Assembly (NCBI GenBank): GCA_016223045.1
Contig: JACRPT010000100.1
Location: 1-60,955 of the forward strand
Length of the DNA: 60,955 nucleotides
Direction: 5' to 3'
DNA from: Candidatus Eiseniibacteriota bacterium
GTDB taxonomy: Bacteria; Eisenbacteria; RBG-16-71-46
This document shows, in pieces, positions 45,465 through 58,935 of this stretch. How positions within the stretch are numbered: the first letter of the stretch is position 1; each line of letters begins with the position of its first letter. The translations under genes were made by a program, and so were the position numbers. The notes beneath the pieces were generated by a model. The model was not told the origin of the DNA, did no database searches, and saw only the letters and a list, made by a program, of their open reading frames with translations.

Positions 45465-45519
45465 TAGGATGTCCGCGGTTCCTCGCTCCTCCAGCATCTC
45501 CCCGACCGAAGGGCCACTC

Positions 45520-46941
45520 ATGCCTGGATTCTCCCCGCATCGGCGCGCGCGCGCCCTTCTGGTCGCGGCGCTGGCGTCCCTGGTCCTCTGTGGCGGCTGC
45601 GCGCGTCCCCGGAAGGCGACGCCCCCCGCAGCGATCTTCCTCATCGTCGTCGACACGCTCCGTCCCGACCACCTGTCCTGCTACGGCGGTGCCGGGCACC
45701 CGAGCCCCGCCATCGACCGGCTCGCCGCATCCGGCGTGCGCTTCGAGCGGGCGCAGTCCGTCTCCAGCTGGACCGTTCCCAGCATGGGCGCCATGCTGAC
45801 CTCGCGCTACCCGACGCAGCTCGGACTCATCGAGCAGCCGCCGGAGCAGGGCGTGCGCTTCGACTGGCGCGAGAAGCGCCGGCAGGTGCGCTACACGCTG
45901 CCCGGAGGCGTTCCCACGCTCGCCTCGCTGCTCGACGACGCCGGCTATCATCCTGCCGCCTTCGTCAACCAGCCGTTCATCAACGCCGGGGACGGGTTCC
46001 TCCACGGCTTCGCGGAATGGTGCTACACCACGGGCGAGCGGACCCTCGAGTGGCACGACTTCACCCGGCCGATGCCGACGATCAACTTCCCCGCGGGCAC
46101 CGATCTCGGGACCGCCGATTCCCTGCTGGTCGCCGAGTTCGCACGCTGGCTCGCTGCCAACGCGGACCGCCGGCCCTTCGTGTGGCTGCACCTGCTCACG
46201 CCCCACTGGCCCTATACACCGCCCGATCGTTACCTGCCCGGGCACGAGCCGCGCCCCACCGACCCCGAGCCCCTCTACTCGGCCGAGGTCCGTGAGGCGG
46301 ACGATCTGGTCGCGGCGGCGCTCGCTGCGATCGACGCCCGGGTCGGACTCGAGCGCTCGCTGGTGATCCTGACCTCCGACCACGGCGAGGAATTCCTCGA
46401 CCACGGCATGTACGAGCACGGGCACAGCCTCCATCGCGAGATCATCCACGTGCCGCTGATCCTGGCGGGGCCCTCCCTGCCCGCGGGCAAGACCGTGGGC
46501 GCCTGCGTGCGCACGGTGGACCTCCTGCCGACGATCCTCGCTCTGGCCGGCGCGGACGTACCGGGGCCTGCGGGGATCGGGGGCGTCAGCCTGCTGCCGT
46601 TCCTCCGCGGTCGGGCGAAGGACCTCCCGGTCTACTCGGAGGGCATGCTCTACGGCAGCACCAAGCGCAGCCTGATTGACCATGGCTACAAGCTCATGAT
46701 CGACGTGCAGACCACCCCGCCCTACCGGCTCTTCGACGTGTCCCGGGATCCCCTCGAGACCCTGGACCTGGCGCCGCAGCTCCCCGATCGCGTGGCGAGG
46801 ATGCGGCGGGCGCTCGCCGTGGAGCGGGCGCGCTTCGTCACCGACTACGCGGCGCTCGTCGGTCCGGGGGCCGTGAAGAACGATCCCGAGACCCAGCGGG
46901 TGCTGCGCGCGATGCGCGCACTCGGGTACGTGAGCGACTGA
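45520..46941 (+). CDS. Sulfatase-fold lipoprotein with Thr at the nucleophile position
   Basis: 473 residues. Signal peptide with lipobox ending at Cys27. The alkaline-phosphatase-superfamily domain has metal-binding V-V-D-T-L-R-P-D-H (Asp45, Asp50), the nucleophile region W-T-V-P-S-M (85-89), S-D-H-G-E-E-F-L-D-H-G and the G-H-S-L-H-R-E block. True sulfatases have C/S-x-P-S-R; here Thr takes the place of the modified Cys/Ser and Met that of Arg, so it is more likely a phosphatase, phosphotransferase or phosphodiesterase. It ends R-A-M-R-A-L-G-Y-V-S-D, the tail motif shared in this region. ATG 45520 (GAAGGG upstream) fits the lipoprotein signal. Confidence 0.82.
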   Translation: MPGFSPHRRARALLVAALASLVLCGGCARPRKATPPAAIFLIVVDTLRPDHLSCYGGAGHPSPAIDRLAASGVRFERAQSVSSWTVPSMGAMLTSRYPTQLGLIEQPPEQGVRFDWREKRRQVRYTLPGGVPTLASLLDDAGYHPAAFVNQPFINAGDGFLHGFAEWCYTTGERTLEWHDFTRPMPTINFPAGTDLGTADSLLVAEFARWLAANADRRPFVWLHLLTPHWPYTPPDRYLPGHEPRPTDPEPLYSAEVREADDLVAAALAAIDARVGLERSLVILTSDHGEEFLDHGMYEHGHSLHREIIHVPLILAGPSLPAGKTVGACVRTVDLLPTILALAGADVPGPAGIGGVSLLPFLRGRAKDLPVYSEGMLYGSTKRSLIDHGYKLMIDVQTTPPYRLFDVSRDPLETLDLAPQLPDRVARMRRALAVERARFVTDYAALVGPGAVKNDPETQRVLRAMRALGYVSD

Positions 46942-47060: not shown

Positions 47061-47882
47061 TCAGATCTCGACGCGCCAGAGGAACTTGGCCGCGAGCCCG
47101 CCGGCGAGCGACCAGAGGATGAACACGGCGAGCCAGTCGCCCTGCCACGCGAGCAGTGGATAGCGCGCCTTCGGGTAGCGGAGCGCGACGCGCGCGATCG
47201 GCCCGTCCGGGTCGAGCCGGGGCAGACCCGGGTGCACCAGCGGATCGAGACTCGAATCGCCGCGCCGGTCGCCGATGACGCCGGTCCCCGACCGGGTGGC
47301 GAGCTCGAAGTCGTAGCTCGTGGGTCCGGCGCGGAGGGCGAGCGTGTGGCGGCCCGCGCCGAGCGCGCGGATCCGCCAGCTGATCTCGCCGCTGGCCGGC
47401 GCGCGCACCGGCGGAGCATCGAGGACGATCCCATCGCCCGGCACCAGGGACACGGGGACGTTCGTCGCGTCCTCGCCCTCTCCCAGGGCGACCGTGACCA
47501 GCGTGGCCCCGGACACGCCCAGGGGCGCGTGGCTGAAGCGCGCGTCGAGCTGGACCACCACCACCAGGATCAGGGGAAGCAGCGCCAGCAGCGGCTTCAG
47601 GTTCACCCCGAGGTGCCCGATGCTGCTCCAGAGCGCCGCGGCGAACGCCTTCAGGAGCACCGCGAGGTCGTCCCGGTAGAGCCTCATCTCGAGGATGTGC
47701 GCCACGAAGACGTCGCGGGTGCGGCGGACGCGCGCCTGGTCGGACGTCGCCTTGAAGATCCACATCGCGACGACTCCGAACAGCAGCGAGATCACCGAGA
47801 GCGCCACCGCGCGGTTCCCGGCGAAGGGCGACATCAGCAGGTCGAACGCGCGGGTCATGACGGTCGCCAGGAACTCAGGCAT
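47061..47882 (-). CDS. Membrane protein, Oxa1/EMC3-like topology, last gene of the PAPS cluster
   Basis: 273 residues. A first membrane helix (about 25-45) is followed by a charged, coiled-coil-like cytoplasmic segment (S-D-Q-A-R-V-R-R-T-R-D to R-D-D-L-A-V-L-L-K, about 46-82) and a second helix (about 97-114). A soluble, beta-rich extracytoplasmic domain (about 118-245) and a C-terminal helix (about 247-267) complete it. The helix - cytoplasmic coiled coil - helix arrangement recalls Oxa1-superfamily proteins such as EMC3 and archaeal DUF106; the beta domain is extra. It starts 8 nt after the RHH-like gene, so it is cotranscribed. It could be the membrane base or insertase of the system. Resemblance only. 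Confidence 0.5.
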   Translation of the reverse strand: MPEFLATVMTRAFDLLMSPFAGNRAVALSVISLLFGVVAMWIFKATSDQARVRRTRDVFVAHILEMRLYRDDLAVLLKAFAAALWSSIGHLGVNLKPLLALLPLILVVVVQLDARFSHAPLGVSGATLVTVALGEGEDATNVPVSLVPGDGIVLDAPPVRAPASGEISWRIRALGAGRHTLALRAGPTSYDFELATRSGTGVIGDRRGDSSLDPLVHPGLPRLDPDGPIARVALRYPKARYPLLAWQGDWLAVFILWSLAGGLAAKFLWRVEI

Positions 47883-47890
47883 TCGATCGC

Positions 47891-48085
47891 CTACGAGATG
47901 TAGCCCAGGCCCGCAAGCCGCTTCTTGATCTCCTCGTCCGAGTCCCCTTCGCCCCCTCGCGCCAGCTCCCGCTCGAGGACGTGCACGACGAACTCATCGA
48001 CCGAAGAGTAGCCCGCCCGCCCGGCCGCCGCCTTCAGGCGCTCCAGGAGCTCGGGTTCCAGTTTGATGGATCTCTTTCGAAACAT
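47891..48085 (-). CDS. 64-residue ribbon-helix-helix-like protein with the LGYI tail
   Basis: The core R-S-I-K-L-E-P-E-L-L-E-R-L-K, then A-G-Y-S-S-V-D-E-F-V-V-H-V-L-E, follows the strand-helix-helix pattern of Arc/CopG proteins, which dimerise through the strand. The last 15 residues (D-E-E-I-K-K-R-L-A-G-L-G-Y-I-S) match the tails of the APS-kinase-like protein and both sulfatase-fold lipoproteins nearby. A strong AGGAGGAGGGG precedes ATG 48085. It lies 11 nt after one phosphodiesterase gene and 8 nt before the membrane-protein gene. It could be a DNA-binding regulator, but the tail suggests a small adaptor that dimerises and docks to a partner. Confidence 0.75.
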   Translation of the reverse strand: MFRKRSIKLEPELLERLKAAAGRAGYSSVDEFVVHVLERELARGGEGDSDEEIKKRLAGLGYIS

Positions 48086-48096
48086 CGCCCCTCCTC

Positions 48097-50043
48097 CTAC
48101 CGGGTGAACAGGACCCGTCCGCTCATCCGCGCCGGCTTCGCGATCCCGTAGAGATCGAGAATCGTCACCGGCAGGTCGAGCAGCGTCGGGTCGGCCACCG
48201 CAATCGGACGGTTCGCCAGCAGCACCCCGGGCACCAGGGTGTGGTCCATGCAATGGTCGCCGCTCCACTTCGCGAGGTTCGGCGTCAGCCACGACGGCGT
48301 GAACGACCCCAGGGCGGACTCGTCGCTTCCGCGGTAGCCGCGATTGTAGCCGACGATCAGGTCCGGAGCCGCCGCGACCTCGGGTCCGTGGTAGACGTCC
48401 CGCGCCCGGTAGACGCGGGTCACGACCTGCTCTCCGGTCTCGGGATCCCGCAACGCGAGGAGCTTCCGCGAGAGGTCGTCGAGAAGCCCGTCGTATTCGG
48501 CCGACGGCCTCACGATGCCCTTCTTCTCCCGCCCCAGCAGGTTGACGTAGAGCCCGTTCAGGCCGAGAGCGTACGCCCGCGTGCGCCGCCAGAGCACGTC
48601 GCGCAGGAGCGGGTGCCGCTCCTTCTCCCCCGGCCGCTCGAGCACCAGGTAGCCCTGCTCGTAGAGCCAGGTGTTGAGGTGGAACTTCTTGTGGTAGGGC
48701 GCGAAGCCGTGATCCGACATCACGATCAGCGTGGCATCGCCCGGGATGCGGCCCCTGACCACGCCGAGCAGGCTGTCCATCCGGACGTAGAGATCCTGGT
48801 AGCGCTCCCCGAACGCCAGGTCGCGCGCGTGCGCCGGATGCCGGTCATCGAAGTTGCGCCACAGCATGTGGCCGGACTGGTCCAGCGTGGACACGTAGAA
48901 GAAGAGGAAGCCGTTCCGGTAGTCCGCGAGCGCCGTGTCGAGCATGCGCCAGCCTTCGGCCAGGACGGTGTCGGTCTGGGCCACGTACGCCGTGTCGTCG
49001 AGCACCCCGGCCTCGAACGCCTTGGTGTCCTCGGGCATCCCCTGCGTGTAGAAGTAGCCGATGCGGTCGAACAGCTCGCGCGAGAAGCCCGGCGGGGTCG
49101 AGATGGGAAGCGCCGGATGCTCGGGATCGAGGTTGATCGGCGAGACGTAGAGCCGGAACGTGGGACGCACCGACCGCAGGTAGAAGCGGCAGATGCCGGA
49201 GAGCCGCTTGAACCTGCCGGCGAGGTCGAACTTCACCGGCACCCAGTCGCTCCACTGGCCGGTCGCGAGCAGGCGGACCTCGTCGCCGACGGTGATGCGC
49301 GCTGTGCCGTGCCCGGCGTCGAGATCGACCGTGAACGGCCGCTTCAGCTCCGGGCGCCCCCGGCGCAACGTGTTCTCGGGACCGATCAGCTCCGCCCGAA
49401 CCCGCCCGTCCACGACGCGGACGCGGTGCAGCGCCCCGCCGGGCACCTCCGCGCCGGGGCCGAGGTCGGCGTCGGTGTAGAAGGAGAACGTGCCGTAGCT
49501 CCCGAGGAGATCGGGGACCCCCATGCCGGCGAGCGTACGGCCCCGGCTCGGGGCGGGCGGGAAGTTCGCGGGGATGCGGAGGACCTCGCAGGGGACGTGG
49601 TGGCGGTCGAGGACCTGCCAGAAGGCCTCGCCCTTCCGCTGAAGCTCGGCCTTCCCGCCGGAGAGCGGGATCGCCCAGTCGCCGAGCGTCAGCGTGCGGC
49701 CGGGCTCGGTGACGCGCGCGGCGGAGAACACCGGCAGGTAGGTGGCCGGATCCCGGTGGATGAAGTCGAAGATGCCGTGACCTCCCGGGTCCATCCCGGT
49801 AATGAAGCACGACCACGCGACCGGGCTCTGCGGGGGGATGCTCGTCCCCAGCCGGGAATACGAGCCGCTCTTCATGAGCGCCTCGAAGTGCGGCATCACG
49901 CCGCGGGCGACGAAGCGCTCGAGGAGCTGAGGATCCATCCCGTCGATGCCGAGCACGACCACCGGCCGGTGCGTGGCCGCCCGCGGAGCGCAGCCGCAGC
50001 TCAGTGCCAGCGCGAGCGCCGCGGCGATCCGGCAGACCTTCAT
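48097..50043 (-). CDS. Alkaline-phosphatase-superfamily phosphodiesterase-like lipoprotein (AP1)
   Basis: 648 residues. A signal peptide with lipobox (Cys near 16-18) places it outside the inner membrane. Superfamily residues are in place: Asp34 in G-I-D-G-M-D, candidate nucleophile Ser73 in Q-S-P-V-A-W-S, T-L-D-Q-S-G-H-M, S-D-H-G-F and a last His in G-D-H-C-M-D. An insertion rich in beta strands (about 120-300) is shared with its upstream neighbour. The pattern is that of NPP-type enzymes acting on phosphate diesters or similar esters. The ATG overlaps the AP2 stop by 4 nt. Substrate unknown; the PAPS genes in the operon suggest a sulfated or nucleotide-linked molecule. Confidence 0.82.
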   Translation of the reverse strand: MKVCRIAAALALALSCGCAPRAATHRPVVVLGIDGMDPQLLERFVARGVMPHFEALMKSGSYSRLGTSIPPQSPVAWSCFITGMDPGGHGIFDFIHRDPATYLPVFSAARVTEPGRTLTLGDWAIPLSGGKAELQRKGEAFWQVLDRHHVPCEVLRIPANFPPAPSRGRTLAGMGVPDLLGSYGTFSFYTDADLGPGAEVPGGALHRVRVVDGRVRAELIGPENTLRRGRPELKRPFTVDLDAGHGTARITVGDEVRLLATGQWSDWVPVKFDLAGRFKRLSGICRFYLRSVRPTFRLYVSPINLDPEHPALPISTPPGFSRELFDRIGYFYTQGMPEDTKAFEAGVLDDTAYVAQTDTVLAEGWRMLDTALADYRNGFLFFYVSTLDQSGHMLWRNFDDRHPAHARDLAFGERYQDLYVRMDSLLGVVRGRIPGDATLIVMSDHGFAPYHKKFHLNTWLYEQGYLVLERPGEKERHPLLRDVLWRRTRAYALGLNGLYVNLLGREKKGIVRPSAEYDGLLDDLSRKLLALRDPETGEQVVTRVYRARDVYHGPEVAAAPDLIVGYNRGYRGSDESALGSFTPSWLTPNLAKWSGDHCMDHTLVPGVLLANRPIAVADPTLLDLPVTILDLYGIAKPARMSGRVLFTR

Positions 50044-52115
50044 ACGATGCTCCGCCCCATCATGTGCCGCGGGGGCTCCACGCCCAGGAGCGTGAGCGCC
50101 GTCGGGGCCAGGTCCATGAGCCGCGGCCGCTCCGCGACCGCCTCGAGGTTGGTGAAGAGCACGCCGGGCACGATCTCGGGGTCCATGCAATGATCGCCGC
50201 TCCAGGGCTTGACGTTGTCCTCGAACACCCGTGGACCGATCACGCCCTTCGCGCAGTCCCACGACGCGCGATAGCCTTCCGCGCAGAGCGCGATCAGGTC
50301 CGGCCCGTCTTCCACGTAGGGTCCCCGGAACGCCTCCCGGACATCCACCACGCGCCGCACCGCGATCGTGCCGTCCTCGTCGCGCAGGCCTTCCAGGCCA
50401 CGCACGATGCGCCGTCCGACCTCGCCGGCCTGCGCGGGCTCCACCGTCCCGCAGCGCTCGCGTCCCTTGAGGTTGAGGTAGATGCCGCCCAGACCGATGG
50501 CGTAGGCCTGGGTGCGATCCCAGTCCACGCCCGCCAGGTACTCGCCGGAGCCCCCTCCCTCCTTCAGCTTCATGAATCCGTTCGCCACCAGCCAGGTGTT
50601 GAGATTCACGCCCCGCCGGAAGCTCTTGAATCCGTGATCCGACATCACCATGAAGGCGGTGTCCCGGTCCACGTACTTCATGGTCTCCCCGACCAGCACG
50701 TCCATCTTCCGGTAGAGGTCGGGGATCGCGTCGCCGTGCGGGCTCGGAGGCTTCCCGCGGTTGGCCGGATGATCCGCGACGAGATGGCGGAAGAACATGT
50801 GCTGCAGGCGATCGGTGATGTCGAACACGCACACCGCCATCCCGCGGTGCAGCCGGTCCAGCGAGTGGAACCACATCGCCCTGCGCTCCTCGTGGAACGC
50901 GTACGCCTGGTCCAGCCACCCCTGCTCGTCGAGCACGCCCTCGTTCATCGCCCAGGTGTCCTCCGCCAGGCCGAGCGTCGCGTGCGGACCGAGCAGCTTG
51001 GCCAGGTGGATGGAGAAGAACGGCGGATGGGAGATCGGCATCGCCGGCCTCTCCGGGTCGATGTGGATCGGGGTCATGTACAGGCCGACCTGGTCGCCGA
51101 GGGCCGTGAGCCTGAACCGCACGATGCCGCGCAGCGTGACCCCGGGGGCGGCGCGGAAGCCCAGCCGCACCCAGGGCGTGTACTCTCCCTCACGCAGCAG
51201 GTGAGACGCGCCGCCGACCGCCAGCTCGACCTCGCGGCGGTCGCGGACCACGCGGAGGGTGAGCGGGAGCGTGAGCGGTTCCTTCGAGAACGGGCTCGCC
51301 GGCCCCGGGATCGCGGTGGCGATGAGGCCGTTCCGCTCCTCGACCTGGACGACCAGGCCGCCGACGCGCGCGGCCTCGTCCGGCGACGTGGTGAAGTAGG
51401 TGAAGGAGCCCTGCGACCCGCGCAGGTCCGGCACGCACATGCCCGCCACCATCACGCCGTCGAACTTCTCGACGGGGAACGTGATCGGCACGCGCAGCAC
51501 CGAGGCGAACACGCCGTGCTCGCTCAGGATCTTCCAGAAGGACTTGCTCTTCCGCAGCATGCGCACCCCGGCTCCCCCGCGCGGGATGCGCAGCGGGCCG
51601 AGGCGGAGGAAGCGCTGCTCGCCGTGCACCTCGCTCGAGGAGAGCTTCGGCAGGTACGAACGCCGGTCGCGGGCGAGGAAGTCCCAGATCGCGTGCCCCG
51701 AGCTGTCCACGCCGGTCGCGAACGTGGACCACGCGACCGGCGAGAGCGCCGGCAGCGACGTTCCCAGCCGGCGATAGCTGCCGGTGTCGCGCAGCCGCCG
51801 CAGATTCGGCAGCTCGCCGTCCGCCATCATGCGCTCGGTGATCGTGGGCTCGAGCCCGTCCAGCCCCAGCAGGATGACCTTCCTGACCTTCGCCCGCCGG
51901 CGCGTGCGCCGGTGGATCGCGCCACGCAGCAGCGCACGGATCGGGAAGGTGAGCAGGGCGAGGAAGGCGGCGAGGAAGGCGATCACCAGGGTGAGGAAGG
52001 ACGAGATCAGCGCGAAGCCGGCCCCGGGTCCGATGTAGGCGTGGGCCGCGGCCGGCGCCGCGAGGACGCCGAGCGCGGCGGCGAGGACGGGCCGGCCGGC
52101 CCTACGGCAGGACAT
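50040..52115 (-). CDS. Membrane-anchored alkaline-phosphatase-superfamily protein (AP2)
   Basis: 691 residues. Its N-terminus carries a signal-like helix (8-26), an A-Y-I-G-P-G-A-G motif and a membrane helix (about 33-58). A very basic segment (60-79) then leads into the catalytic domain, which by the positive-inside rule would be cytoplasmic. Active-site pieces are intact: Asp86 in G-L-D-G-L-E, Ser125 in L-S-P-V-A-W-S, I-T-D-R-L-Q-H-M, S-D-H-G-F and G-D-H-C-M-D. It is the closest relative of AP1 here, suggesting duplication followed by a change of location. ATG 52115 lies inside the AP3 gene end (14-nt overlap) and has GGAG 5 nt upstream. Confidence 0.82.
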   Translation of the reverse strand: MSCRRAGRPVLAAALGVLAAPAAAHAYIGPGAGFALISSFLTLVIAFLAAFLALLTFPIRALLRGAIHRRTRRRAKVRKVILLGLDGLEPTITERMMADGELPNLRRLRDTGSYRRLGTSLPALSPVAWSTFATGVDSSGHAIWDFLARDRRSYLPKLSSSEVHGEQRFLRLGPLRIPRGGAGVRMLRKSKSFWKILSEHGVFASVLRVPITFPVEKFDGVMVAGMCVPDLRGSQGSFTYFTTSPDEAARVGGLVVQVEERNGLIATAIPGPASPFSKEPLTLPLTLRVVRDRREVELAVGGASHLLREGEYTPWVRLGFRAAPGVTLRGIVRFRLTALGDQVGLYMTPIHIDPERPAMPISHPPFFSIHLAKLLGPHATLGLAEDTWAMNEGVLDEQGWLDQAYAFHEERRAMWFHSLDRLHRGMAVCVFDITDRLQHMFFRHLVADHPANRGKPPSPHGDAIPDLYRKMDVLVGETMKYVDRDTAFMVMSDHGFKSFRRGVNLNTWLVANGFMKLKEGGGSGEYLAGVDWDRTQAYAIGLGGIYLNLKGRERCGTVEPAQAGEVGRRIVRGLEGLRDEDGTIAVRRVVDVREAFRGPYVEDGPDLIALCAEGYRASWDCAKGVIGPRVFEDNVKPWSGDHCMDPEIVPGVLFTNLEAVAERPRLMDLAPTALTLLGVEPPRHMMGRSIV

Positions 52116-53424
52116 CGAGGCTCCGGAGCACCATGCGGGATGCCGCTTCCAGGTGGAAGTCGTCACTCGCGGACTCGAGCAGATCCCGGCGGCGGGTGAG
52201 GAAGAACGCGTCGTCCCAGGTGTGCATGCCCTGGAGCTGTCGCGGGCCGATGAACGAATCCGCCCCGATCCGGCCCTTGAGATCGTAGCCGCGGTGCGGG
52301 ACGACGAGCAGATCCGGGCCGAGATCGGCCTGCGGGCCGCGGTAGATCTCCGCGGCATCGAAGACGCTGCGGACCACCGGCGCGCCCTCGTGACGGAGCG
52401 CGCCGATGAACTCCGTGAGCTCCCGCTTGAGCGCCGCCACCTCGCCCTCGCCGACCGAGCCCTTCGGGTAGCGGCCACGGCGATGAAGGTACACGCGCGC
52501 CGGATCGAGCACGAACGCCCGCGTCCGCTCCGAGACGCCCTCGAGCGAATCGGCGGCCGGATCCTCGAGCGTCAGATAGCCGGCCTCGGCCAGGGCCCGG
52601 TTGAGAAACGCCTGCTTCCGGGCGCCGCAGAAACCGTGATCCGAGAGCACGAAGAAGTTCCGCTCCTCACCCGTCTCCGAGAACCGCTCGAACACCTCGC
52701 CGATGAAGGCATCGATCGCCCGGTAGTAGTCGAGGAAGTCCCGGTGGTGGGGATGACCCTCGTCCTCGCAGGCGTCCCACAGGAAGTGGTGCAGGCGATC
52801 GGTGCCGGTGATGACCACTTCCATCAGGTTCCAGCGTTCCTTCTCCCACAGCTCGTCCAGCATCCGGCGCCGCAGCTCGAGCAGTCGCGCCAGCTCGCGG
52901 AAGAGCGCGGGGGGATCGTCGCGGACCTGGCGCGCGTCGAGGTCGACCTGATAGCCCATGTCCAGCGCCGCCTGCAGGTGGTGTGCGGGGTAGACCGACT
53001 TCTCGAGTCGGACCGCCACGAAGCCCGAGACCAGGGCGCCCGGGATCGGCCGCGCCGGGTAGGTGGCCGGCTGATTGAGGACCACGCTTCGCATCTCCCG
53101 CTTCCCGAGAAGGTCCCAGATGGTCTCGGCCTTCACGTCGAGGAAGCTCGGGAACCGGGTTCTGTAGGTGCCCGGGACCAGATCGGTGAAGCCGAAGATC
53201 CCGTGCTCGCCGGGATTGCGGCCGGTCATGAACGTGGTCCAGCTCACCGACGAGATCTCGGGCAGCGAGGCCACCATCGGCGTGAGCGTCGCGTCGCGGG
53301 CGATCTCGGCCAGCCGCGGCATCACGCCGGCCTGGAGGAACCGCCCGAGCATCGAGTGGGGCACGCCGTCGAGGCCGATGACGCAGGCCTTCCTCGGCGA
53401 TCGCGACGAGTCCTTCAACGCCAC
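52102..53424 (-). CDS. Soluble alkaline-phosphatase-superfamily protein (AP3)
   Basis: 440 residues with no signal peptide or membrane helix, so cytoplasmic. Active-site elements are Asp19 in I-G-L-D-G-V, Ser58 in I-S-S-V-S-W-T-T-F-M-T-G, the metal pair in T-G-T-D-R-L-H-H-F-L-W, L-S-D-H-G-F and a late His in G-M-H-T-W-D-D. It lacks the large beta insertion of AP1 and AP2. It resembles type I phosphodiesterase/nucleotide pyrophosphatase proteins and, being in the same compartment as the PAPS synthase, could act on APS, PAPS, PAP or a lipid-linked product. The start is GTG 53424 with GAGGG upstream, 15 nt after the APS-kinase-like gene. Confidence 0.8.
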   Translation of the reverse strand: MALKDSSRSPRKACVIGLDGVPHSMLGRFLQAGVMPRLAEIARDATLTPMVASLPEISSVSWTTFMTGRNPGEHGIFGFTDLVPGTYRTRFPSFLDVKAETIWDLLGKREMRSVVLNQPATYPARPIPGALVSGFVAVRLEKSVYPAHHLQAALDMGYQVDLDARQVRDDPPALFRELARLLELRRRMLDELWEKERWNLMEVVITGTDRLHHFLWDACEDEGHPHHRDFLDYYRAIDAFIGEVFERFSETGEERNFFVLSDHGFCGARKQAFLNRALAEAGYLTLEDPAADSLEGVSERTRAFVLDPARVYLHRRGRYPKGSVGEGEVAALKRELTEFIGALRHEGAPVVRSVFDAAEIYRGPQADLGPDLLVVPHRGYDLKGRIGADSFIGPRQLQGMHTWDDAFFLTRRRDLLESASDDFHLEAASRMVLRSLDVLP

Positions 53425-53439
53425 CGTGCCCTCACGCGC

Positions 53440-53988
53440 TCAGATGTAGCCCAGATCGCGCAGGCGGGCCTTGATGGCTTCTTCCTCTTCCGCCAGGTAG
53501 CCGCCGCCGCCGATCCCCGGGACGTGCCCGAGCGCTTCCAGCAGCGAGACGATCGCCCGCACCGCCCCATCCTCGCCTCCCTCTCCCGCCACGCTCACGA
53601 CGTGCGTTCGCTCCGATTCCGGGCCGCTGCCCGGCGCGTCCGCCGTTCCGGCCGTGGCCTCGGCGGACCCGCGGAGCTCAACCTCCACCAGGCGTTCGAT
53701 CGCCGCCCGCAGCTCGTCGCGCAGCGGCGCGGGCGCCAGTGGCTCGGCCGCGATCGCGGCCACCCCGTTCCGCGACAGCAGGCGGCAGACGAAGCCGACG
53801 CGGCGGGCGCAGGCGGCACGAGCCTCCGCGGGATCGCCGGGACCGGCCCCCAGGCGCTCCCGCACCTCGTCGCCGCCCACGAACTCGACCGCCATCCCGC
53901 GCTCGAGCAGGGCCTCCTCGACCCGGCGCGCGACGCTCGCCGCGAGGGCCGGCGAGGGACCCGTCAGCCAGAGGGTGAACCCCCTCAT
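53440..53988 (-). CDS. APS-kinase-like protein without a P-loop, with the LGYI tail
   Basis: 182 residues. It follows the APS kinase fold closely: G-F-T-L-W-L-T-G start, G-G-D-E-V-R-E-R-L after the second strand, A-R-R-V-G-F-V-C-R-L-L-S-R-N-G-V, then a P-L-R-D-E-L-R segment. Each aligns with the kinase domain of the ATP sulfurylase/APS kinase two genes upstream. The Walker A is destroyed: G-P-S-P-A-L-A-A-S replaces G-L-S-G-S-G-K-S-T, so no Lys or Ser/Thr remains to hold ATP. It is probably not a kinase but a regulatory or docking relative. The C-terminus E-E-A-I-K-A-R-L-R-D-L-G-Y-I carries the shared tail. ATG 53988 has GGGAGG upstream. Confidence 0.8.
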   Translation of the reverse strand: MRGFTLWLTGPSPALAASVARRVEEALLERGMAVEFVGGDEVRERLGAGPGDPAEARAACARRVGFVCRLLSRNGVAAIAAEPLAPAPLRDELRAAIERLVEVELRGSAEATAGTADAPGSGPESERTHVVSVAGEGGEDGAVRAIVSLLEALGHVPGIGGGGYLAEEEEAIKARLRDLGYI

Positions 53989-54013
53989 CGTACGAGCCTC
54001 CCGCCGGCCGGCA

Positions 54014-55393
54014 TCAGAGGACCTTGCCGATCATCTCGCCGGGCGTGGCGATCCCGAAGTAGTCGAGGATCGACGGGGCGACGTCGTAGATGGATACCCG
54101 GTCCGCAGCGCCGGCGGCCGGCTTGCCGCGCCCCTGCCAGATGAAGATCCCCTCCTGCGAGTGGTTGGCGTCGTCGGGGCCGGTGTCGTTCTCGAAGACG
54201 TGGATCTGGCGCCCGCCGACCATGCCGGCGCTGCGCCAGTCCAGGTTCCCGAGATAGACGATCATGTCGGGCGGCGTGCCGTTGCTCGCGCGATACACCT
54301 CTTCGGGAAGGAAGACCCGGGTGCCGATGTTCCGGCCCGCCTCGTCGGTGAGGTTCTCGAGCTCCGACTTGAGGTCGCGCTTGAACGCCGCCAGCTCGCC
54401 GGCGGGGATCCGCCCGTCGGGCTCGCGCCCCTCGACGTTGAGGAAGATGCGGGCGTAGTAGCCGCCTTCGCTCCACACCCGGGTGCGGCTCCAGTCGATC
54501 ATGTCCGCCTTCAGCCGCGTCGGCCCCTCGGGATACCGCTTGAGCGTGAGCAGGCCCCGGGCGATCAGCCACTCGTTGATGCAGACTGCTCCGTGCATCG
54601 CCTGCGCGCCGTGGTCGGAGACCACGATGACCGAGACGTCCTTCGGGAGCTCCTGCAGCACGCGGCCGACCTGGCCGTCCAGATGGACGTAGTAGCGGTG
54701 GATCACGTCCTCGAATTCGTTGCCCGGCCGGTAGAGCCGATGCGCCGGATCGGCGTAGCGCCAGAAGGCGTGATGGAGCCGGTCCGGACCCATCTCCACC
54801 ATCATCGCGAAGTCCCAGTCCTCGAGCGAGAGGAGTCTGCGGAAGGCCTGGAATCGCGCGTTCGTCATGCGGTAGATCTGGTCGAGGGTCTCGCGCTTGC
54901 GCTCGTTGCGGAAGTCCCTGACATCGATGATGTACTCGCCGCCGGCCCAATCGTCCAGCCGCGACGCCAGCTCCGGCGGAGAGGTCCAGACCACGTCCTT
55001 GCCGGGAGTGAGGAAGTCGCAGACCATCACGCCGCGCAGCGGCCGTGGCGGATAGGTCAGCGGCACGCCCATGACGATCGAGCGCAGGCGGTTCCTCGAC
55101 AGATGGTTCCACACCGTCTTCGCCTTCACGTGGGTCGCGTTCACGGTGAAGGTGTCCTCGTAGCCGTGCGAAGCCCGGTTGCGGAATCCGTAGATCCCGA
55201 GCATGCCGGGATCCTGGGAGGTCATCATCGCCATCCAGGCCGGGACGGTGATCGGCGGGATGGTGGAGACCAGGTTGCCGTGGATCCCCCCGTCCATCAG
55301 GCCGCGCAGGTGGGGCATCTCGGCGAGCCACGGCCCGAACAGGAACTGGGGCGTGAGGCAGTCGAGACCGATGATGCACAGCCGCTTCGACAC
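54014..55393 (-). CDS. Soluble alkaline-phosphatase-superfamily protein (AP4)
   Basis: 459 residues without signal or membrane helix. Active-site pieces are Asp11 in I-G-L-D-C-L-T, Thr49 in P-I-T-V-P-A-W as nucleophile candidate (the other three have Ser), M-G-P-D-R-L-H-H-A-F-W, V-S-D-H-G-A-Q and A-N-H-S-Q-E-G. It is the second gene of the operon, 11 nt after the PAPS synthase gene, with AGGAG before its GTG start (55393). A much longer open frame upstream is antisense-type shadow. The Thr suggests chemistry closer to nucleotide phosphodiesterases, perhaps cleaving or transferring from APS or PAPS. This is inference from context. Confidence 0.8.
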   Translation of the reverse strand: MSKRLCIIGLDCLTPQFLFGPWLAEMPHLRGLMDGGIHGNLVSTIPPITVPAWMAMMTSQDPGMLGIYGFRNRASHGYEDTFTVNATHVKAKTVWNHLSRNRLRSIVMGVPLTYPPRPLRGVMVCDFLTPGKDVVWTSPPELASRLDDWAGGEYIIDVRDFRNERKRETLDQIYRMTNARFQAFRRLLSLEDWDFAMMVEMGPDRLHHAFWRYADPAHRLYRPGNEFEDVIHRYYVHLDGQVGRVLQELPKDVSVIVVSDHGAQAMHGAVCINEWLIARGLLTLKRYPEGPTRLKADMIDWSRTRVWSEGGYYARIFLNVEGREPDGRIPAGELAAFKRDLKSELENLTDEAGRNIGTRVFLPEEVYRASNGTPPDMIVYLGNLDWRSAGMVGGRQIHVFENDTGPDDANHSQEGIFIWQGRGKPAAGAADRVSIYDVAPSILDYFGIATPGEMIGKVL

Positions 55394-55404: not shown

Positions 55405-57135
55405 TCAGCTCCCGCTGTTGCCGCCGATGTAGCCGAGCCGCTCGAGGTGAAGCAGGATCTGATTGGCGGCCTCGTCCGGCGTGGTGGCGGTCGTGTCGAT
55501 GCGCACGTCCGCGTCCGCCGGCTCCTCGTAGGGATCGCTGATCCCGGTGAACTCCTTGACGATCCCCTGGCGGGCCTTGGCGTAGAGGCCCTTGCGATCC
55601 CGCGCCTCGCACACCTCGAGCGGCGTGGCGACGTGCACCAGCACGAAGCCCCCGAGCGGCTGGATCATCGCCCGCACCCGCCTGCGCGTGTGGTCGTAGG
55701 GAGCGATCGGGGCGCAGATGGCGATCCCGCCGTTCTTGGTGACCTCCGAGGCCACGAACCCGATCCGCTGGATGTTGAGGTCGCGATGCTCCCTGGAGAA
55801 GCCCAGCTCGGAAGACAGGTGCTTGCGCACGATGTCGCCGTCGAGCAGCGTGACCGGCCGTCCGCCCATCATCAGCAGCTTGACCAGGAGCGCGTTCGCC
55901 ACCGTGGACTTCCCCGACCCGGAAAGACCGGTGAAGAAGACGGTGAAGCCCTGCATCGCCCGCGGCGGATGGGTGCGCCGCAGCTCGCGCGCCACCTCGG
56001 GATAGGTGAACCACTCGGGGATCTCCCGGCCCTCCGCCAGGCGTTCCCGCAACTCGGTGCCCGAGATCGAGAGCGCCCGGGTCCCCTCCGGGACCTGGTC
56101 CTCCGGCACGTAGGCGTCGAGCTCCTGCACGTAGACCATCATCTTGAACGGCACCATGCGCACGCCCAGCTCCTTCTGGTGCCGGGAGAGCAGCTCCTGG
56201 GCCTCGTAGGGACCGTAGAAGGGGCGGCCCGCGGAGTCGTTGCCGGGACCCGCATGATCGCGGCCGACGATGAGGTGCGTGCAGCCGTAGTTCATGCGGA
56301 TGATGCCGTGCCACACCGTCTCGCGGGGCCCGCCCATCCGCATCGCCAGGGGCAGGAGCGCCAGGAACGCGGTGAACCTGGGGTAGCGCCCGAGGATCGC
56401 CTGGTAGCCGCGCACCCGGGTGTAGTGGTCCACGTCTCCCGGTTTGGTCATCCCGACCACCGGGTGGATCAGGAGATTCGCCTGCACGTCCTTGGCCGCC
56501 CGCAGCGTCAGCTCGAGGTGGGCGCGGTGCATGGGATTGCGGGTCTGGAAGGCCGCGATCCGCGTCCAGCCCAGCCGCGAGAACTCGCGGCGGGTCTCGG
56601 CGGGAGTGAGGCGCAGCCCCTTGAAATCGTAGTGCACGGGCAGTTGCAGCCCCTCCACCTCGCCACCGACGTACCAGGAGTGCGTGTGGTTCAGCAGGTA
56701 TTCGACGCCCGGGTGCTCCGGCCGGCGGGCGCCGAACACCTGCTCGGCCTCCAGCTCGCGATCCGGCTTCCAGACGTCCCCGACGCGCAGCGCCGCCAGC
56801 ATCACGCCCTCGGCGTCGCGCAGGGCCAGGGTCGAGCCGGGCTCGAGCCGGCGCGCCACTTCCTCGGTCACATCGAGGGTGACGGGGATCGGCCAGAGCG
56901 TGCCGCTCGCGAGCCGCATCTCGTCGCGCACCCGCTCGTAGTCGGAGCGACCCAGGAAGCCGCGCAGCGGCGAGAAGCCGCCGTTCATCAGCAGTTCCAG
57001 GTCGCAGAGCTGCCGTCCGGTCAGGTCCCACGACACCCATTCGCGGGAGTGGCTCTTCAGCTCCGCCGCTCGGGCCTCGTCCGCCAGCAGGTCGACCAGC
57101 TGGCCGCCGTGGGGTCGTATCAGGTGTTCGGGCAC
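55405..57135 (-). CDS. Bifunctional sulfate adenylyltransferase / adenylylsulfate kinase
   Basis: 576 residues. Makes APS from ATP and sulfate, then PAPS from APS and ATP. The N-terminal PUA-like and ATP sulfurylase domains (about 1-385) carry Q-T-R-N-P-M-H at 197-203 and G-R-D-H-A-G-P-G at 291-298. The C-terminal APS kinase (about 394-576) has an intact P-loop G-L-S-G-S-G-K-S-T at 403-411 and D-G-D-I-V-R. It ends L-L-H-L-E-R-L-G-Y-I-G-G plus four residues. GTG 57135 has GGAGGAG 8 nt upstream. As first gene of an eight-gene operon without reductase genes, it probably supplies PAPS for modification and not for sulfate assimilation. Confidence 0.95.
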   Translation of the reverse strand: MPEHLIRPHGGQLVDLLADEARAAELKSHSREWVSWDLTGRQLCDLELLMNGGFSPLRGFLGRSDYERVRDEMRLASGTLWPIPVTLDVTEEVARRLEPGSTLALRDAEGVMLAALRVGDVWKPDRELEAEQVFGARRPEHPGVEYLLNHTHSWYVGGEVEGLQLPVHYDFKGLRLTPAETRREFSRLGWTRIAAFQTRNPMHRAHLELTLRAAKDVQANLLIHPVVGMTKPGDVDHYTRVRGYQAILGRYPRFTAFLALLPLAMRMGGPRETVWHGIIRMNYGCTHLIVGRDHAGPGNDSAGRPFYGPYEAQELLSRHQKELGVRMVPFKMMVYVQELDAYVPEDQVPEGTRALSISGTELRERLAEGREIPEWFTYPEVARELRRTHPPRAMQGFTVFFTGLSGSGKSTVANALLVKLLMMGGRPVTLLDGDIVRKHLSSELGFSREHRDLNIQRIGFVASEVTKNGGIAICAPIAPYDHTRRRVRAMIQPLGGFVLVHVATPLEVCEARDRKGLYAKARQGIVKEFTGISDPYEEPADADVRIDTTATTPDEAANQILLHLERLGYIGGNSGS

Positions 57136-57465: not shown

Positions 57466-58935
57466 ATGGCCTCGATCTCCCGGCACCCCACTGCGCCGCG
57501 GCGCGCGCTCGCGGGCCGCACGCTCGCGGCGTGGCTCGCGGCCGCGCTCGCCGCGGTCTGCCTGATCCTCGGCATTCCCTCCTGCGCGAGACGAAACGGC
57601 GCGCGGCCCCGCCACGTGATCCTCATCTCCCTGGACACGGCGCGCGCCGACCACTTCGGATTCCTCGGGAATCCCGCGGTCCGCACGCCGCGGCTCGATG
57701 CGATCGCCCGGGAATCGATCGTATTCGAGGACTGCATGACCGCGGCGCCCTCGACGCTGGCCTCCCACACCTCGCTGTTCACGGGCAAGTACCCGCACCA
57801 TCACGGGGTGCCCCGCAACGGCTTCATGGTCAACCGCGAGAACCAGATGCTCCCGGAGATCCTGAAGCAGGCGGGCTTCCGCACCGCGGGGTTCGCCGGC
57901 TCGTTCTCGCTCGACAGCCGCTTCGATTTCGCGCAGGGATTCGACCACTACGACGAGGAGTACGACGTCTTCGTGGGCGAGGGGGGCGCGGACCAGAATC
58001 AGCGCCCGGCGGAGGCGGTGAACGCAGCGGTGAAGCGCTACCTCGACCAGACCGGGGTTCCGGACCATCTGTTCCTGTTCGTGCACTACTTCGATCCACA
58101 CCAGCCCTACGCGGCGCCGGCGCCGTTCGACACGCTCTACGACCCGGCCGGCAGGAAGGGACTGCCGACCATGCGCGAGCTGAAGAAGAGCCCGGCGCTG
58201 ACGGCGGAGGCCCGCGAGGGCTTCGCGCGGCGTTTCGAGATGCAGTATGCATCCGAGATCACGTACCTGGACCATCATCTCGGACGCCTGCTGGACGACC
58301 TGCGCGAGCGCGGCATCCTCGAAGACGCGCTGCTGGTGATCACCAGCGATCACGGCGAGAACCTGTGGGACCATCCCGCGCAGTTCGACCACGGCCACAC
58401 GGTGTATCAGAGCACGATGCGCGCCGTGTGCGTGATGCGCCTGCCGCGCGGCGAGTCGGGCGGGACGCGGCGGAAGCAGCTCATCTCGAACGTGGATGTC
58501 CTGCCGACGCTGCTCGGAGAGCTGGGGCTCGACCCGCCCCGGGGGATCGATGGCGAGCGCGTCAGACTCCGCGAACCCGAGGCGCCGCTCGCGAGCCGAA
58601 CCCGCTTCGGACAGGCGACCAAGCCGTGGCAGGAGGTCGAGACCGACCCCCGCTGGACCAACCTGCGCAAGTCCCGGTGCGTGTGCCAGGGGCGGTTCAA
58701 GCTCATCCAGACGCCCTGGCTCGGGACCGAGGAGCTGTACGATCTCGGGTCCGACCCCGACGAACGGACGGACCTCCTCAAGGACCCGTCTCCCCGGGTG
58801 GCAGCGCTTGCCGCCAGCCTGAGACGGAAACTCGAGCACTGGGCGGCATCCGCGAAGCCGTTGCCGTCGCGATTCGAGCCGGCGCAGCAGGAAGAGACGA
58901 TCAGGAGACTGAAGAGCCTCGGCTACATCAACTGA
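57466..58935 (+). CDS. Sulfatase-fold exported protein with Thr at the nucleophile position and the LGYI tail
   Basis: 489 residues. A hydrophobic N-terminus (about 17-38) ends in G-I-P-S-C, a weak lipobox. Metal residues are in S-L-D-T-A-R-A-D-H (Asp57, Asp62), T-S-D-H-G-E-N-L and D-H-G-H-T. The nucleophile region reads S-T-L-A-S-H-T-S-L-F-T-G with Thr97 where sulfatases have the modified Cys, Ala99 for Pro and His101 for Arg, so sulfatase activity is doubtful. It ends E-E-T-I-R-R-L-K-S-L-G-Y-I-N, the shared tail. It diverges from the PAPS operon. The ATG follows a -10-like TAGCCT by 5 nt with no ribosome binding site, so it may be leaderless. Confidence 0.82.
   Translation: MASISRHPTAPRRALAGRTLAAWLAAALAAVCLILGIPSCARRNGARPRHVILISLDTARADHFGFLGNPAVRTPRLDAIARESIVFEDCMTAAPSTLASHTSLFTGKYPHHHGVPRNGFMVNRENQMLPEILKQAGFRTAGFAGSFSLDSRFDFAQGFDHYDEEYDVFVGEGGADQNQRPAEAVNAAVKRYLDQTGVPDHLFLFVHYFDPHQPYAAPAPFDTLYDPAGRKGLPTMRELKKSPALTAEAREGFARRFEMQYASEITYLDHHLGRLLDDLRERGILEDALLVITSDHGENLWDHPAQFDHGHTVYQSTMRAVCVMRLPRGESGGTRRKQLISNVDVLPTLLGELGLDPPRGIDGERVRLREPEAPLASRTRFGQATKPWQEVETDPRWTNLRKSRCVCQGRFKLIQTPWLGTEELYDLGSDPDERTDLLKDPSPRVAALAASLRRKLEHWAASAKPLPSRFEPAQQEETIRRLKSLGYIN

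Follow-up and report, generated by a model that had tools for sequence, protein, structure and literature searches.

A candidate non-catalytic APS kinase subunit in a conserved operon of PAPS synthesis and alkaline-phosphatase-superfamily genes

Our analyses showed that the window, a stretch of 60,955 nucleotides from a Candidatus Eiseniibacteriota bacterium (contig JACRPT010000100.1), encodes an APS kinase (CysC) homologue that appears catalytically dead. This pseudo-CysC (182 residues; 53440..53988, reverse strand) lies in an operon that links PAPS synthesis to several alkaline-phosphatase-superfamily (AP) proteins and that is widespread and uncharacterised; literature searches returned nothing relevant on a bacterial pseudo-APS-kinase or on the conserved operon itself. 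On balance, and with some reserve, we favour the view that pseudo-CysC derives from the tailed APS kinase native to the operon, has lost catalysis and is kept as a non-catalytic subunit.

Fold and lost motifs of pseudo-CysC

The pseudo-CysC reading frame runs from an ATG to a TGA codon, its translation opens with MRGFTLWLTGPSPALAASVARRVEEALLERGMAVEFVGGDEVRERL, and a ribosome-binding site, GGGAGG (53997..54002, reverse strand), precedes the ATG by 8 bases. By homology and predicted fold, the protein belongs to the APS kinase fold family, as a preliminary description of this DNA had proposed. Pfam assigned it to APS_kinase (PF01583, E=1.7e-14), and phmmer against the PDB placed APS kinases at the top (8a8h, 6.1e-14). 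The AlphaFold2 model, built with 29 sequences, reached a pLDDT of 83.4 and a pTM of 0.76 (91.6 and 0.88 for the model of the intact relative L037), and Foldseek ranked APS kinases first, again with 8a8h as best match (E=1.9e-10, TM 0.81 by target length). In the model, five strands and the expected helices are seen, residues 110–121 are disordered at the former lid, and the tail forms a separate helix (residues 166–179). Against NCBIfam PRK00889, with a family cut-off of 244, pseudo-CysC scored 69.8 bits and one intact relative 255.

Pseudo-CysC and APS kinases have in common the core strands and helices as well as two segments that had been noted before, DEVR (residues 40–43) and RRVGFV (62–67), both retained in the alignment. 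In contrast, the Walker-A motif GxxxxGK[ST] is absent. GPSPALAAS is found at the aligned GL[SP]xxGK[ST][ST], and the former P-loop as a whole (residues 10–19; 53932..53961, reverse strand) reads GPSPALAASV against GLSGSGKSTL. The preliminary description thus recognised the erased ATP-binding loop correctly, but it limited the damage to this loop, and the damage is wider: besides the loss of the Walker-A Lys, DGD is without its first Asp, and the lid is gone together with most of the APS contacts. The DGD(x)xR segment has become GGDEVR, where the second Asp and the Arg remain, and the APS-contact segments GFSxEDRxxNIRR and ISPYxxxR read GDPAEARAACARR and PLAPAPLR, with isolated Arg and Glu residues kept. 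GFSKEDRxxNIRR, ISPY and KGLYKKA..FTG are absent or mostly so. The lid, RDxKGLYKKA..FTGxxDPYE, misses about 20 residues, with TAGTADAPGS as the remainder. Alignments, the model and a weaker codon-position signal locate the deletion site in this lid/APS-binding segment at a low-complexity linker (residues 104–140; 53569..53679, reverse strand), and the middle of the protein looks unconstrained. The tail, YLAEEEEAIKARLRDLGYI (residues 164–182; 53443..53499, reverse strand), is conserved. Because the loss of about 20 lid residues offsets the retained tail of about 20 residues, the apparent preservation of CysC length is a coincidence; the orthologues measure about 200 residues with this tail.

The operon in the window and in other genomes

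Pseudo-CysC lies downstream of Sat-CysC (55405..57135, reverse strand, as are the operon genes that follow), a bifunctional ATP sulfurylase–APS kinase by NCBIfam (PRK05537 equivalog, 922 bits), Pfam and alignment to 1i2d. Its C-terminal domain, with an intact P-loop (GLSGSGKST), is the intact APS kinase that had been reported from this operon. The closest solved structure is the Penicillium ATP sulfurylase 1i2d (E=1.4e-208), from which Sat-CysC differs by its intact kinase P-loop. On either side of pseudo-CysC, again as described before, stand AP genes of the type I phosphodiesterase family (PF01663), namely AP1 (54014..55393) and AP2 (52102..53424), with 65% and 52.5% identity, respectively, to their counterparts at locus L106. 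Two more members of this family follow, both with approximate starts: AP3 (50040..52115), which has an N-terminal hydrophobic segment, and AP4 (48097..50043), likely a lipoprotein. A small ribbon-helix-helix (RHH)-like protein (47891..48085) is 64% identical to the L106 RHH protein, matches Pfam RHH_1 weakly and under the cut-off (E=0.0056), and ends in ..SDEEIKKRLAGLGYIS, a tail of the same kind as that of pseudo-CysC. The last gene of the conserved operon, as judged by comparison with L106, encodes a membrane protein (47061..47882) that matched no Pfam family.

A scan of genome contigs gave 38 related loci, most of them in one conserved operon with the order stand-alone Sat (~395 aa), AP1, CysC (~200 aa), AP2, AP3, AP4, small RHH-like protein and membrane protein. 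The operon spans about ten phyla, some members being without AP1 and AP2, and its hosts are Latescibacterota, Eisenbacteria, Krumholzibacteriota, Gemmatimonadota, Acidobacteriota, Planctomycetota, Poribacteria, Omnitrophota, UBP1 and ‘Deltaproteobacteria’ bins. Its CysC always runs about 20–25 residues past the end of ordinary CysC, e.g., with YSAEEEEKIKARLKDLGYI, and the pattern of this tail, ..EEEEKIKxRLKDLGYI, also occurs on the RHH proteins of the operon. With its position between AP1 and AP2 and its C-terminal [EK]xxIKxRLxxLGY[IL], the window protein belongs to this tailed CysC lineage, to which it is 42–48% identical. The tailed CysC proteins of the operon, however, keep P-loop, DGD and lid and accompany a stand-alone Sat, whereas in the window Sat-CysC replaces Sat and a P-loop-less protein occupies the CysC slot. 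The P-loop was intact in 34 of the 36 tailed CysC proteins compared, the exceptions being the window and L062, and a search for more dead copies in 38 named loci and in other operons found only intact P-loops in the slot.

In genome G021 (L106), from the same class as the window, the operon is complete, Sat stands alone and the tailed CysC is intact. According to the preliminary description, intact P-loops next to otherwise identical clusters would mark the window copy as simply decaying. Nearly identical clusters of this kind do exist, for example in G021, but they have a stand-alone Sat and the window has the fused Sat-CysC. This difference accounts for the P-loop loss, and decay is hence a live rival and not the demonstrated answer. 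A comparison across the class found neither Sat nor the operon in the other members of the window's family, so that the operon was probably acquired in this lineage or widely lost by its relatives. AP1 of the operon was absent from 19 other genomes of the family, which offered no orthologue for dN/dS analysis.

Variants of the operon were seen as well. Shorter operons without AP1 and AP2 (L043, L057, L059, L109, L110) consist of Sat, tailed CysC, AP3 and AP4, followed, on contigs that are long enough, by RHH and membrane protein. At L068:4994-10989, the half made up of AP3, AP4, RHH and membrane protein is opposite in strand to Sat, AP1, CysC and AP2, as if inverted. At L121 and L122 (G417:C1:1553983, G417:C1:2640990), AP1 is split, and its two parts lie on a single contig at a distance of about 1.1 Mb. 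Masked (N) stretches mark the break, which stems from either a rearrangement or an assembly fault.

C-terminal LGY[IL] tails similar to that of CysC were found on RHH-like proteins at the two ends of the operon and on AP-superfamily sulfatases, including two in the window. These two (57466-58935 and 45469-46941, both forward strand) end in LKSLGYIN and MRALGYVSD, sequences similar to the tail of the operon proteins; when a window sulfatase was compared with solved sulfatases, no displayed alignment extended to its C-terminal end. The second small RHH-like protein (~80 aa) is encoded upstream of Sat, with a tail ..EEFTPDELRAIKQRLKNLGYID, at L035:7784-8053, L046:8302-8562, L041:7089-7325, L038:7190-7447 and others, which brings the proteins with this C-terminal tail in one operon to three. 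Within the window, no small tailed ORF was found beside Sat-CysC. A 78-residue tailed protein (..EERIKERLRSLGYID) was also found just upstream of Sat in a Thermoplasmatota archaeon bin (L067:7528-7764, forward strand), where CysC is without the extra tail.

A second dead copy and the pattern of retention

L062, from Candidatus Magnetomicrobium (Nitrospirota), encodes a 180-residue protein between AP1 and AP2 that reads GFYCEGKGL at the P-loop and NEC at DGD, has neither GFSKEDR nor the lid, and carries the tail ..YSDDEADEIKNRLESLGYL. Only AP1 and AP2 are kept beside this dead kinase, and a different contig of the genome encodes an ordinary CysC that is intact. In the AP1 and AP2 trees, the window groups with intact operons in a well supported clade that does not include L062; the two were united in 0% of bootstrap trees, and the strongly supported branches need two separate changes. 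With the window inside and L062 outside the intact clade, catalysis was apparently lost at least twice in the CysC slot, and both genomes encode another APS kinase. Both dead versions are singletons, from one genome each, with dS to their relatives expected to be saturated, and share no new conserved motif. Among 231 genomes of its class, the L062 pseudo-CysC had no equally close kin, and a related AP1 was present in only 2 other genomes of 396 in its phylum, with no CysC beside it in the stretches fetched.

Retention was measured against 32 intact tailed CysC proteins, at positions conserved in at least 85% of them. The catalytic and ligand segments (P-loop, DGD, GFSxEDR..N, ISPY, lid, FTG) were picked by ourselves and not taken from a table, following general knowledge of APS kinase structures. 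By this division, the window protein keeps 13 of 40 catalytic/ligand positions (20 changed, 7 deleted), 32 of 50 positions in the core of the remaining body and all 8 conserved tail positions. Fisher tests of catalytic versus other positions gave p=4.6e-4, or 0.007 with deleted positions excluded and 0.025 for the core alone. For L062, the contrast of core and catalytic positions was weaker, with p=0.013 when deletions were counted and 0.075 or 0.25 without them, and retention of its tail versus body did not differ significantly (p=0.22).

Compared with intact members of its clade, pseudo-CysC is 42–45% identical in the body and 74–84% in the tail (44% and 84% with L005), whereas among these intact members body and tail identities are 76% and 89%. 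In intact operons, CysC exceeds AP1 by a mean of 15 points of identity (120 intact pairs); in the window, the protein in the slot is 12–20 points less identical than AP1 when both are compared with intact members of their own clade. From these identities, the CysC slot in the window has switched from slow to fast evolution, the tail excepted.

Decay, sensing or a structural role

Pseudo-CysC may be a decaying redundant gene without present function, a reading that we regard as less likely. Its frame would then be open through translational coupling in a long operon and an inactivation that is recent relative to stop appearance at 71% G+C. Sat-CysC clearly makes the gene redundant, its body has diverged much faster than that of intact relatives, and low-complexity sequence has taken the place of the deleted lid. 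Moreover, G+C at codon positions 1/2 is raised, at 0.82/0.56 compared with about 0.70/0.46 in the neighbours, and simulated neutral drift left the frame without a stop in 3–18% of runs (P=0.03–0.18; stop codons only, with frameshifts outside the model), which makes the lack of stops by itself a weak argument. However, a single frame matches the tailed family from end to end with no frameshift, its ribosome-binding site is intact, the tail is unchanged at every conserved position, the core is better kept than the catalytic segments (p about 5e-4), and a second independent case shows the same outcome. All this fits the maintained pseudo-enzyme or structural partner suggested in the preliminary description, although decay still competes with it. 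That the gene is a sequencing or assembly artefact of a metagenome bin is highly improbable. It does come from a single genome (G000, 164 contigs), but in-frame changes extend across all 182 codons with the codon-position pattern preserved, the bin is 97.6% complete and 0.02% contaminated, and the flanking operon genes are all intact. We give hardly more credence to a still active enzyme that acts on a different substrate or through an unusual nucleotide site: D40 and R43 of GGDEVR and arginines 57, 63, 90 and 94 remain, but the Walker-A lysine and glycines and the lid have disappeared, and L062 offers no shared new motif.

To our knowledge, the sole characterised PAPS-sensing pseudo-APS-kinase is the C-terminal domain of Penicillium ATP sulfurylase. 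Fungal ATP sulfurylase is regulated by its inactive APS-kinase-like domain (PMC13213808), and this domain binds PAPS (PMC3779200). With this precedent for a regulatory domain (PMC3779200, PMC13213808), its APS kinase fold and the operon shared with Sat-CysC, pseudo-CysC could likewise be an APS/PAPS sensor or an allosteric regulator of Sat-CysC, the former as previously suggested. We consider this role quite unlikely. In the 1i2d alignment, the fungal domain keeps GFTREDR..NIQR, APIAPY, the complete lid and most of the P-loop (GYMNSGKD), whereas the window protein and L062 have lost the lid and most APS contacts. Sensing of PAPS by pseudo-CysC through a fungal-type site is thus unlikely, since GFTREDR..NIQR, APIAPY and lid are missing or mostly so. 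Both the fungal domain (1i2d, 1m8p) and the window protein have the APS kinase fold without kinase activity and are associated with ATP sulfurylase (PMC13213808), inactivity of the window protein being read from its sequence. The fungal domain, however, is fused to the sulfurylase, whereas the window protein has an ORF, a ribosome-binding site and a stop of its own. Similarly, the APS-kinase-like domain of yeast ATP sulfurylase (1g8f, 1j70), for which no defined catalytic or regulatory function is described (PMC3779200), is part of one polypeptide, and the window protein is separately encoded and carries the LGYI tail.

For the reading that we favour, comparison of the operons shows Sat-CysC, with intact kinase motifs, in the place of Sat. 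The fused enzyme appears able to do the kinase's job, so that the old CysC is redundant for PAPS synthesis, which would have freed it from catalysis. The old CysC has lost its ATP-binding, catalytic and most APS-binding residues together with the lid, while the fold core and LGYI tail are kept. Body and tail might serve as a scaffold or tail carrier. The probable docking partner would be an AP-superfamily protein or some other product of the operon; alternatively, the protein might pair with the kinase domain of Sat-CysC. An AP-superfamily partner is a guess, made because L062 keeps only AP1 and AP2 beside its dead kinase. That a second, unrelated lineage underwent the same loss suggests that the protein is kept for its structure and not for catalysis. 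Of its parts, the tail is the most likely to carry the retained function, as LGY[IL] tails recur on RHH-like proteins and AP-superfamily sulfatases.

More tentatively, we may speculate that the LGYI tail common to CysC and the RHH-like proteins is a docking tag that builds a multi-protein complex. APS kinase would then have a second role as a scaffold, strong enough for two lineages to have kept body and tail independently after catalysis was lost. The two dead copies would be counterparts of the fungal pseudo-APS-kinase domain that are encoded as proteins of their own and, unlike it, are without the lid and most APS contacts. As two natural losses of catalysis, they separate a structural from an enzymatic role without mutagenesis. 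A function of the dead kinase would mean that APS kinase has a non-catalytic task in this operon, and would single out the shared LGYI tail as the important part.
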